Of a DNA stretch of 64,000 nt, positions 7,060-49,743 are shown piece by piece. The notes under the pieces are model-generated. The model was not told the origin of the DNA and did no database searches. It saw only the letters and a list, made by a program, of their open reading frames with translations. Position 1 is the stretch's first letter. Each line of letters starts with the position of its first letter. Origin of the DNA: Halorubrum sp. 2020YC2 (GTDB lineage Archaea > Halobacteriota > Halobacteria > Halobacteriales > Haloferacaceae); NCBI RefSeq assembly GCF_018623055.1, contig NZ_CP076019.1:1364001-1428000 (forward strand), given 5' to 3'. A program made the translations under genes and the position numbers.

Positions 7060-7260
7060 ACTTCCAAAGCCCCAGCCGTGAGGCGGGCCCTTTGAGTCCC
7101 ACCCTCCACCGCACAGCAACCGCGCCTCACACCTCCCCAACCTCGTCGGTGGTCCTCCGCTACGCTCCGGACCACCGACTCCCTCGCACGCGCTCCTCGT
7201 GGCCGCCGGCGGCGGCCACTCGGAGGCGCGCGCCACCGCAGTACCACGTCTATTTATAAA
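7060..7260 (-). repeat. TATA-flanked structured element, copy A
   Basis: Read on the minus strand, a TATA box (7251-7260) is followed by the family core: GCGGTGGCGCG, the GAGGGAGTC block, GAGG(T)TGGGGAGGTGTGAGG, GGGTGGGACTCAAAGG and GGCTGGGGCTTTGG. One stem is a perfect 11-bp hairpin (7145-7155 with 7169-7179). The apical hairpin uses GGCCGCC arms. This is the shortest copy: it lacks the long fourth stem and its last module has no TATA. It lies 51 bases downstream of the KaiC-like gene stop and next to the tRNA-Gly scar. Confidence 0.8.
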
Positions 7261-14969: not shown

Positions 14970-16382
14970 CTACTCCTCCGAGAGCCGCTCCCGCACGTCG
15001 GTCTCGGCGCGCCTGAGCACCTCCCGGATCGGGAGCCCGGTCGCCTCCGCGACCGCGGCCGCGTCGTCGTACTCCCCGCTGACGTCGTAGGGCTCGCCCT
15101 CCGTCGTCGACGCGATCTTCACGCTCACTTCGTGGTCGGCGCCGTCGACCCGGAGCGTCGCCGTCTCGAACTCGCGTTCCGCGATCCACCGGTGGCTCGC
15201 GCCGGACTGCCGAACGCCGAGCGTCCCCGTCTCGCGGGCGAGCCGCTCCGCGACCGCCTCGGCGTCCGCGGGCTTACAGATGACCTTGACGAGGTGGCCG
15301 GGCCGTGACTTCTTCATCGTCGTCGGAACGATGGTTACGTCTCGTGCGCCGGCGCGCGAAAGCGTCTCCTGAAGCCCGCCGAGCACCTCGGGGGCGGCGT
15401 CGTCGAGGTTCGTCTCCAAGACGGCGATGTCGTCGTGGACGAGTCCGCCGTCGGGATCGTGTTCCGCGTGGGCGTCCGCGTTGTGGGTCTCGTGGGTCCC
15501 ATCGGCCTCGTCGGCTTCGTCTCCGGGTCGACCGCCGTCACCGAGGAGCGCGCGCAGGACGTTCGGGTGGCGCTCGAAGTCGGCGTCACCGGCGCCGTAG
15601 CCGGTGCGCTCGACCGCGAGATCCGGGACCGCGTCGACTCCCTCCGCGACCGCACCGAGGATCGCGGCGCCGGTCGGAGTGAGCAGTTCGCGGTCGATCG
15701 GTCCGCCGACGATCCGGAACCCGGCGCGGGTCGCTATCTCGGTCGTCGCCGGGGCCGGGACCGGGTACGTCCCGTGGCTCATCTCGACCGTCCCCCCGCC
15801 GGCCGCGACGGGAGTCGTGACCACGCGCTCGGGGTCGAGGTCGGCGAGCAGCAGCGCGGCGCCGACCACGTCGGCGATCGCGTCGTCCGCGCCCACCTCG
15901 TGGAAGTGGATCTCGTCGAGGTCGGTGCCGTGGACCGAGGCCTCCGCGCGTCCGAGTAGCTCGAAGGCGTCGAGCGCGGTCGACTCGACGGGGTCGGGGA
16001 GCGCCATCGACTCGACGAGGTCGACCACCTCGCGGTAGCTCCGGTGGACGCCGGCGCCCTCGGCCGAAGCAGCGTCTGCGGGAGACGCCGTGTCGTGGCT
16101 GTGGTCGTGGTCGTGGTCGTGGCTGTGGTCGTGGTCGTGGTCGTGGTCGTGGCTGTGGCCGTGGTCCGAGTTAGCCTCGGCCGCCTCGTTGTCGCCGTCG
16201 ACGAGGACGTCGACGGCCGTCGCTCGGATCCCGTTCTTCTCCGTCTCACCGACCTCGTACCGGACCGGGAGCGCGTCGCTCACGGGGTCGAGGACCGCGG
16301 GATCGGCGCCGGCCGCGACCAGCGCGGCGCAGATCATGTCGCCGGCGGCCCCGGTCCGACCGTCGAAGACGAGCGTTCGCAT
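14970..16382 (-). CDS. larC: Nickel pincer cofactor biosynthesis protein LarC
   Basis: A 470-residue LarC, which inserts nickel into the pyridinium dithiocarboxylate precursor of the NPN cofactor. N-terminal MRTLVFDGRTGAAGDMICAALV and the middle DEIHFHEVGADDAIADVVGAA are signature blocks; the C-terminal half has IAVLETNLDDAAPEVLG and TTMKKSRPGHLVKVIC. A histidine-aspartate tract of about 26 residues (near 78-104) resembles a nickel-storage loop. In some bacteria larC is split by a programmed frameshift; here it is one continuous frame. ATG 16382 is chosen over a frame extension of nine residues because homology begins at MRTLVFDG. Confidence 0.93.
   Translation of the reverse strand: MRTLVFDGRTGAAGDMICAALVAAGADPAVLDPVSDALPVRYEVGETEKNGIRATAVDVLVDGDNEAAEANSDHGHSHDHDHDHDHSHDHDHDHSHDTASPADAASAEGAGVHRSYREVVDLVESMALPDPVESTALDAFELLGRAEASVHGTDLDEIHFHEVGADDAIADVVGAALLLADLDPERVVTTPVAAGGGTVEMSHGTYPVPAPATTEIATRAGFRIVGGPIDRELLTPTGAAILGAVAEGVDAVPDLAVERTGYGAGDADFERHPNVLRALLGDGGRPGDEADEADGTHETHNADAHAEHDPDGGLVHDDIAVLETNLDDAAPEVLGGLQETLSRAGARDVTIVPTTMKKSRPGHLVKVICKPADAEAVAERLARETGTLGVRQSGASHRWIAEREFETATLRVDGADHEVSVKIASTTEGEPYDVSGEYDDAAAVAEATGLPIREVLRRAETDVRERLSEE
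16081..16170. repeat. Hexanucleotide-rich repeat encoding the LarC His-Asp tract
   Basis: The coding strand repeats GACCAC and GACCACAGC units, giving (HD)n with HSHD interruptions. Such a tract is prone to length change by slippage and binds nickel in related proteins. Confidence 0.85.
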
Positions 16383-16489
16383 GGTGCTCCCGAGGCGACT
16401 GCCGGACAAATACCTCGGGATTGACTTCGCTGAATTGGTCGAACGGTTGTTTATAAGTATCTGAGCGATGGCCGTCTGCTATTTATAAA

Positions 16490-16799
16490 TCGGTGACGAC
16501 GAATCGGAGGCGAACACCCCAAAGCCCCAGCCACGAGGCGGGCGCACGCTCGCTGCGCTCCTCACTCGGTCGCTCACTCCGTTCGCTCCCTTGTTGCGGT
16601 GCTTGTGTCGCCTGCGCCCGCCTCGCGGCTGCCCCTTTGAGTCCCGCCCGACCGCACAGCACCTCACACCTCCCCAGCCTCGTCAGTCGCCCGTCGCTCC
16701 GCTCCGGGCGACTGACTCCCTCGCGCGTGCTCCTCGCGGCCGCCTTCGGCGGCCCCTCGGAGGCACGCGCCACCGCAGTTCGGCGTTGTTATTTATAAA
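16490..16799 (-). repeat. TATA-flanked structured element, copy B
   Basis: On the minus strand, TATA (16790-16799) is followed by GCGGTGGCGCGTGCC, the GCACGCGCGAGGGAGTC block, a perfect 12-bp hairpin (16682-16693 with 16705-16716), GAGGCTGGGGAGGTGTGAGG, GGGACTCAAAGGGGC, and a 16-bp stem (16530-16545 with 16614-16629, one G-U). It ends in a 57-bp module starting at GTGGCTGGGGCTTTGG and finishing with TTTATAAAT. TTTATAAAT therefore brackets both ends of the element. The upstream gene's stop codon lies inside the 5' TATA box. The following stretch, 16446-16455, has another TATA before larC. Confidence 0.85.
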
Positions 16800-32685: not shown

Positions 32686-33090
32686 ATTTATAAGTAGAAT
32701 TGCGGTGTTGCCGGCGGCTGTTTATAAGCGGCTGGCGCTGCTGCGGTGAACGTCTTCAAAGCCCCAGTCGCGACGGCTCGCGCGCCTTGCTGTGCTCCTC
32801 GCTCGGTCGCTGTCGCTCCCTCGCTGCGGTGTCGCCGGCGGCTTCGCCGCCGGCTGCCCGTGGCGCGTAGCGCCACACTGCTTGCTGCGGCGTGCTTCGC
32901 CCTCGCGACTGCCCCTTTGAGTCCTACCCCACCCCGCACCACCCCGCACCGCCCCGCACCGCCCCGCACCTCACGCCTCCCCAGCCTCGTCGCTGGCGGC
33001 TGGCGCCGCCAGCGACTCCCTCGCGGGCTGACTCGCGGCCGCCGGTGGCGGCCGGTCGCAGGCGCGCCACCGCACTCTGCTTTTATAAAC
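32686..33090 (-). repeat. TATA-flanked structured element, copy C
   Basis: On the minus strand: TATA 33081-33090; GCGGTGGCGCG; a perfect 12-bp hairpin (32989-33000 with 33005-33016) with a 4-nt loop; GAGGCTGGGGAGGCGTGAGG; a CCCCGCACC-repeat expansion (GGTGCGGGG units); TAGGACTCAAAGGGGC; an enlarged fourth stem region with two extra hairpins (GGCGGC/GCCGCC); GCGACTGGGGCTTTG; then a 57-bp module with TATA near 32720-32727. A further TATA-like box is at 32686-32695. The upstream gene on the same strand ends 178 bases away. Confidence 0.82.
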
Positions 33091-41004: not shown

Positions 41005-41453
41005 TCGCTGTCGCGGCGAACGCCGCCGAAACCCCAGTCGCTTGCTGATAAATGACTAACTGTAGATCGGCGGCGAACGCCTCCAAAGCCCCAGTCGCGA
41101 GGACGGCGCACGTTCGCTGCGGTCCTCAGTCGCTCGCGCTGCTCGCTCCTTGCGGTCCTTACGTCACCCGCGCCGTCCTCGCGACTGCCCCTTCGAGTCC
41201 CACCCGACCGCGACCGCACCACCGGAAGCCGTTCCTGCTCGCTTCGCTGCGCGGGCTGCGACTTCCGTACTCCCGCTCGCTCCCGCCGGTCACTCGCGGG
41301 ACCGCACCTCACGCCTCCCCAGCCTCGTCGCTCACTCCGTTCGCGACTCCCTCGCGCGTGCTCCTCGCGCCCTTCGGGCGCTCAGAGGCACGCGCCACCG
41401 CGCTACGCGAGCACTCACGCGTAGCGTGCGAATCCGAACGTCGTTTATAAATA
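41005..41453 (-). repeat. TATA-flanked structured element, copy D
   Basis: Minus strand: TATA (41444-41453), GCGGTGGCGCGTGCC, GCACGCGCGAGGGAGTC, a shortened second hairpin (GTCGC with GCGAC, 41327-41331/41343-41347), GAGGCTGGGGAGGCGTGAGG, an extra stem of about 80 bases inserted in the third region, GGTGGGACTCGAAGGGGC, a perfect 16-bp stem (41094-41109 with 41170-41185), then two 57-bp end modules (41098 down to 41042, and from 41041). The first module contains a TATA-like ATTTAT. The upstream minus gene ends 12 bases before the TATA. Confidence 0.84.
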
Positions 41454-49326: not shown

Positions 49327-49743
49327 CTTATAAAGAACAATGCGGTGGCGCGTGCCGACGAGCGCCCGAAGGGCGCGAAGTCGCACGCGCGAGGGACGCG
49401 GTGAGTGAGGGGCGACCGGAGAGAGCCCCGAGCGAACCGCGAGGCTGGGGATGGATGAGGTGCTGTGCGGGGCGGGGTGGAACTCAAAGGGGCGGTCGCG
49501 AGGTCGCCGTAGGCGACGCAAGGACCGCAGGGAGCGAGCGACCGAGGACCACAGCGAGCGTACGGCGACCTCGCGACTGGGGCTTTGGAGGTGTCCGCCG
49601 AGGATCCACAGTCGACCACGTATAACCGAGCGACTGGGGCTTTGGAAGCGTTCACCGCCGAACCGCCGACAACCGATTATAAATAAGCGGCTGGGACTTC
49701 GGAAGCGTCCCTCGTCGAATCGTCGGAGTCCTAACACGGAACA
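49327..49743 (+). repeat. TATA-flanked structured element, copy E, with three 57-bp end modules
   Basis: The only plus-strand copy. TATA (ACTTATAAA, 49326-49334), GCGGTGGCGCGTGCC, GCACGCGCGAGGGA, a split stem (49398-49402 with 49436-49440; 49409-49413 with 49425-49429), GAGGCTGGGGATGGATGAGG, GGTGGAACTCAAAGGGGC, and a perfect 16-bp stem (49495-49510 with 49562-49577). Three successive 57-bp modules start at 49573, 49630 and 49687; the first two end in TATAAC or TTATAAATAA. The following aminotransferase starts at 49807. Confidence 0.86.
49573..49743 (+). repeat. Tandem array of the 57-bp TATA-bearing module (part of copy E)
   Basis: Three modules of exactly 57 bases each begin GCG(A/G)CTGGG(G/A)CTT(T/C)GG. 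Copy D has the same module twice with the same 57-base period. In most modules a TATA-like motif occupies positions about 45-55. The third copy here lacks it and is more diverged. Confidence 0.85.

Follow-up and report, generated by a model that had tools for sequence, protein, structure and literature searches.

Terminal AT boxes as probable built-in parts of a chromosomal family of intergenic elements in Halorubrum

The element beside larC and its two nonamers

A repeated intergenic element called copy B lies between the gene larC on its left and, on its right, an open reading frame (ORF) that ends at position 16793 and converges on the element. The window, by which we mean the whole 64,000-nt stretch of DNA analysed, itself part of a single 3.06-Mb contig (G000), holds five copies including this one. 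The other four are a truncated copy at 7 kb (7088–7238, minus strand, profile positions 2–151, with a box at 7252–7260) and copies at 32.7 kb (32756–33070, minus strand, boxes at 32721 and 33082), 41 kb (41083–41400, minus strand, box at 41444–41452) and 49.3 kb (49343–49588, plus strand, boxes at 49329 and 49678). Within the LarC reading frame, a simple DNA repeat at 16090–16165 gives rise to a run rich in His and Asp (HDHDHDHD...).

The conserved structured core of copy B spans 16519–16775 on the minus strand (profile positions 2–257). Read in this minus sense, the roughly 257-nt core begins with GCGGTGGCGCGTGCC, finishes with GGCTGGGGCTTTGG and carries two hairpin domains plus a long covarying helix, whose arms (AGCCACGAGGCGGGCGCA at 16529–16546 and TGCGCCCGCCTCGCGGCT at 16613–16630) lie more than 60 nt apart. 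Four G-tracts are conserved on the same strand: tracts 1–3 within 16632–16649 (GGG at 16647–16649, GGG at 16643–16645 and GGGG at 16632–16635), and tract 4 (GGGG) at 16525–16528. Past the core follows at least one tail unit of the form GGTGTTCNCCGNCGATC...ATTTATAAGCGAGCGGCTGGGGCTTTGG; such units are often near-identical within a copy and differ between copies. ORFs of 62–101 amino acids cross the element on both strands (16479–16798). A protein-coding reading was rejected, as the ORFs of 96–101 amino acids inside copy B sit in covarying helices and were judged spurious; under automatic annotation, ORFs running through the element could become repeated spurious proteins.

The nonamer TTTATAAAT occurs on the plus strand at 16482–16490, inside a 10-bp palindrome (ATTTATAAAT, 16481–16490) and hence on both strands, and again on the minus strand at 16791–16799. 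The window holds six matches to this sequence, compared with 0 expected from shuffles. An earlier note on this DNA had reported the same nine bases at either end of copy B; the pair is there and exceeds chance, but the quoted positions (16490–16498 and 16790–16798) are off by 8 and 1, respectively. A further AT box (TTTATAAGT, 16450–16458), recognizable by its sequence, lies 32 bp outside the left box. Outer-end AT boxes are often paired 32–34 bp apart, or about three helical turns (in the window, 16450/16482 and 32687/32721), and TTTAAATA/TTTATAAA box pairs are seen at the outer ends of other copies.

Boxes across copies and target-site duplication

To call a box in other copies, we required a match to TTTATAAA at seven or more of its eight positions. 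Boxes are present at both ends in 38 of the 74 full copies examined, so the earlier claim of related boxes flanking the other copies holds for these but not for the remaining 36, which lack one or both. When ends are scored singly, 26/92 copies have no minus-sense 5′ box and 15/102 have no 3′ box. Both boxes carry the same 9-mer in only three of the 38 two-box copies, making their identity a peculiarity of copy B. Each end follows a consensus of its own, TTTATAAAT at the minus-sense 5′ end and TTTATAAGC at the 3′ end. The distance of the tail-end box is mostly fixed (29 nt in 49 of 87 box-bearing copies), whereas the box opposite the tail, where present, is usually separated from the core by 13–24 nt. 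Further out on this non-tail side, TTTAA or TTAAA is found at −62 to −38 in 24/74 copies, versus one in a control interval.

One proposal for the paired nonamers was transposition of the element into TATA boxes, with nine bases of the target being doubled. The identical 9-mers on either side of copy B and the many dispersed copies are what such a mechanism would produce. However, target-site duplication predicts that the boxes of one copy resemble each other, and among the 38 two-box copies they are no more alike than boxes paired by shuffling (identity at 7.71 of 10 positions within copies and 7.77 for shuffled partners, P = 0.79). The constant distance between core and left-side box in most copies and the separate consensus of each end also argue against it. 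Furthermore, none of TTTATA, TTATAA or TATAAA occurs in nine unoccupied alleles at four of the window's sites, which belong to congeneric species and thus give a weaker comparison than strains would. Two alleles of genome G007 were left out of this set: a seemingly empty site at 34.8 kb proved to hold a decayed element, of which TTCGAGTCCCGCCC remains, and the allele at 16.5 kb, with a single TTATGAAC, may likewise be a decayed element. Finally, relatives hold elements at shared loci: most placeable elements occupy the same locus in three species (G000, G051 and G065), the outcome that the earlier note had itself named as fatal to the proposal. Duplication of a TATA target is therefore, in our judgement, highly improbable.

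A role of the boxes as pairing terminal inverted repeats was also rejected, the inverted identity of box plus flanks being no higher than the shuffled level. The element resembles a miniature inverted-repeat transposable element (MITE) or other non-autonomous insertion element in being small, non-coding, dispersed and present in many copies. It does not belong to that class, because it has neither a target-site duplication nor pairing terminal repeats; it also differs in that its loci are common to several species and in its near absence from plasmids.

A promoter-like unit and the neighbouring genes

For calibration, 282 gene starts from the same genomes were profiled, revealing an A/T peak at −27 and a second at −10. 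A profile of 55 copies read inward from the tail side shows TTATAAAT, then GAT, then GAACACC, with the spacing found at these gene starts. In copy B, the left box (16482–16490, plus strand) would be the TATA of a promoter-like unit directed into the element, the remainder of which (16491–16517, plus strand) supplies A/T at about −10 and a predicted start near 16512 within the conserved GAACACC. The left box thus has the core-promoter features expected of it: TATA about 30 bp before the predicted start, A/T at −10 and a purine at +1. The right box (16791–16799, minus strand), read inward, fails the spacing check and was dropped as a promoter candidate, given its variable distance of 13–24 nt and the presence of only G/C at the −10 position. 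The suggestion that the element is a cassette with its own start promoter consequently survives for the left box, which has haloarchaeal core-promoter spacing, but not for the right one.

The promoter-plus-start unit is tandemly repeated in many copies, which would explain why boxes recur at the tail end. Duplicated tail units occur as well where the genus has no TATA there (L164 and L167), which counts against our overall reading of the boxes. In other genera, on the upstream side of the core in the R-sense, every third position from −29 to −5 tends to be a purine (R-N-N), ahead of the GAAAGCCCC start.

The same suggestion had a second half, namely that the boxes are read-out promoters by which the element re-supplies a TATA to its neighbours. 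AT boxes do stand near both ends in about half of the copies. At copy B, however, larC has its own −27 box (16404–16414, minus strand; GGACAAATACC when read on the plus strand), which is kept in relatives that lack the element, so read-out into larC was discarded. At the other end, the right box shares bases with the stop codon of the converging ORF. Over the copies as a whole, co-directional downstream genes are not strongly favoured, and only an inward reading of the tail-side box gives promoter spacing. Read-out promoters are accordingly an unlikely purpose for the boxes, if a less remote one than target duplication.

Conservation of loci and replacement of sequence

Elements at shared loci keep their place and not their sequence. 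Orientation is the same in 34 of 37 shared-locus pairs, and the flanks 150–600 bp away have a median identity of 0.92. In contrast, the elements themselves are no more alike than non-orthologous copies (mean rank percentile of 0.53 in global alignment), with the ortholog ranking first in 10 of 56 comparisons versus 3.4 expected by chance. Whole hairpins vary between orthologs, yet both arms still pair. On the right-box side, moving outward from the core, ortholog identity is 0.67–0.75 in the initial 60 bp, box included, and reaches about 0.9 past 80 bp. This low identity places the right box within a unit that evolves with the element, and its spacing is wrong for a promoter.

The simplest reading of elements that are stable in locus but changed in sequence would be gene conversion among copies, which would replace sequence in place. 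Alternatives are fast change that preserves structure, or new insertions that hit the same sites again and again. With its constant address and changing content, the family offers an archaeal test case for concerted evolution.

We consider it likely, with a probability of roughly 65%, that both boxes are integral to one member of a large intergenic family, chiefly chromosomal and most likely made up of non-coding RNA (ncRNA) genes, that no target-site duplication is involved, and that the left box is the TATA of an inward promoter. Against this stand the 36 of 74 copies without a full pair of boxes and the conflicting evidence on strand. The question posed by the nonamers has an ordinary answer: the boxes are built in, and one is promoter-like.

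Fold, strand and distribution of the family

Compensatory changes in the helix arms, by which structured RNAs are recognized, are present here, with all four Watson–Crick pair types at many positions across genera. For 87 sequences belonging to other genera, the consensus fold scores −40.8 in the minus sense and −25.2 in the plus sense, compared with about 0 for column-shuffled alignments. On the minus-sense strand, G·U wobble pairs outnumber A·C by 58 to 17 in total (20 versus 6 for the genus of the window, 38 versus 11 for the rest), counts that come from related and hence non-independent sequences. The minus-sense G-tracts are intact in 65/74 copies and in 122/128 copies of a second set, which was chosen by a motif containing two of the tracts. 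Wobble pairs, fold energy and G-tracts point to the minus-sense strand, the promoter-like unit to its complement; the evidence on strand is thus in conflict, and the element may be transcribed on both strands. That it is transcribed at all, from which strand and to what function, we infer from features of the DNA.

In profile searches, three 300-kb blocks, each taken from a different species, contained 57–70 copies per Mb, or about 190 copies per genome if these blocks are typical; by density, the family occupies roughly 2% of the chromosome. The genome-wide matches considered for G000 are the best 40 of 265 candidates scored as copies. By simple gene calls, the elements are intergenic and show no strong preference in orientation. 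The core motif GGRCTSAAAGGGGC has 115 matches in the source genome (reversed control, 0) and is found in 115 of 195 genomes, a number that coincides with the former by chance, and in 39 of the 66 sampled genera of the order, some genomes having a single and possibly chance match. Named records with the element include Haloarcula, Halobaculum, Halorussus, Haladaptatus and Natronococcus. Only three plasmid records match copy B, and no phage record in the collection searched does so; for comparison, haloarchaeal plasmids from many genera do carry the IS200-type TnpA found in this genome. In four multi-replicon genomes, all matches listed, from the best 40 scored per genome, lie on the main replicon, which is indicative of a chromosomal habit among the matches listed.

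The repetitive extragenic palindromes (REP) and their BIME assemblies, with the associated RAYT (TnpA-REP) transposases, are closest to this family in behaviour. Likenesses are the many intergenic chromosomal copies, the palindromic structure and, within the collections searched, the rarity on plasmids and phages. A REP core is a short palindrome, unlike the present core of about 257 nt with its several covarying helices and promoter-like unit. The genome has only three matches to the Y1 transposase domain PF01797, which may miss some RAYTs; their nearest elements are about 9, 12 and 1 kb away, and these three do not consistently adjoin the element. Structured ncRNA families in Rfam share the covarying helices and conserved unpaired segments. 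Unlike them, the element matches no Rfam 15 family even at E ≤ 1, is present in about 190 copies per genome and shows no orthology signal at shared loci. That a family without an Rfam entry has its core motif in over half of the order's sampled genera adds to its interest.

These comparisons bear on what the element might be. A tentative picture, which we hold at well below even odds, is that of chromosome-restricted RNA genes spread across much of Halobacteria, with four G-tracts that possibly form a quadruplex at a helix junction, and with fixed loci whose content is repeatedly overwritten by other copies, both helix arms together. A rival reading, also well below even odds, is that the element acts as DNA, as a REP/BIME-like hairpin repeat serving the nucleoid, replication or recombination, with no RNA gene. 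The many copies over the main chromosome, the mere three plasmid records and absence of phage matches, and the main-replicon location of the best matches listed all suit a role as DNA. However, a DNA hairpin predicts no asymmetry between G·U and A·C pairs, in conflict with the 58:17 ratio, and it leaves the promoter-like unit conserved at one end unaccounted for.

A literature search on haloarchaeal repeats and RNAs and on the core sequence, which reached a minority of subscription journals, yielded no description of the family, and one may exist elsewhere. Intergenic ncRNAs have been reported in haloarchaeal vesicles (PMC10927574); the accessible part of that article does not describe the family of copy B.

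Two further arrangements were seen among the copies. In L183, L192, L286, L293, L295, L297 and G191, all from other genera, minimal elements form head-to-head pairs about 25–30 bp apart, separated by a palindrome-like spacer such as CCGGTTGATCAACCGG. In different genera, one or two small-hairpin cassettes (for example, CGAAAATCTTCGATTTTCGGGATCACGAGAGAGCGAGCTCTCTCGAAC) reside inside element loops, so that a second repeat is nested in the first, as observed in L198, L202, L285 and L286 and in Halorubrum-like copies such as E59 and E71.
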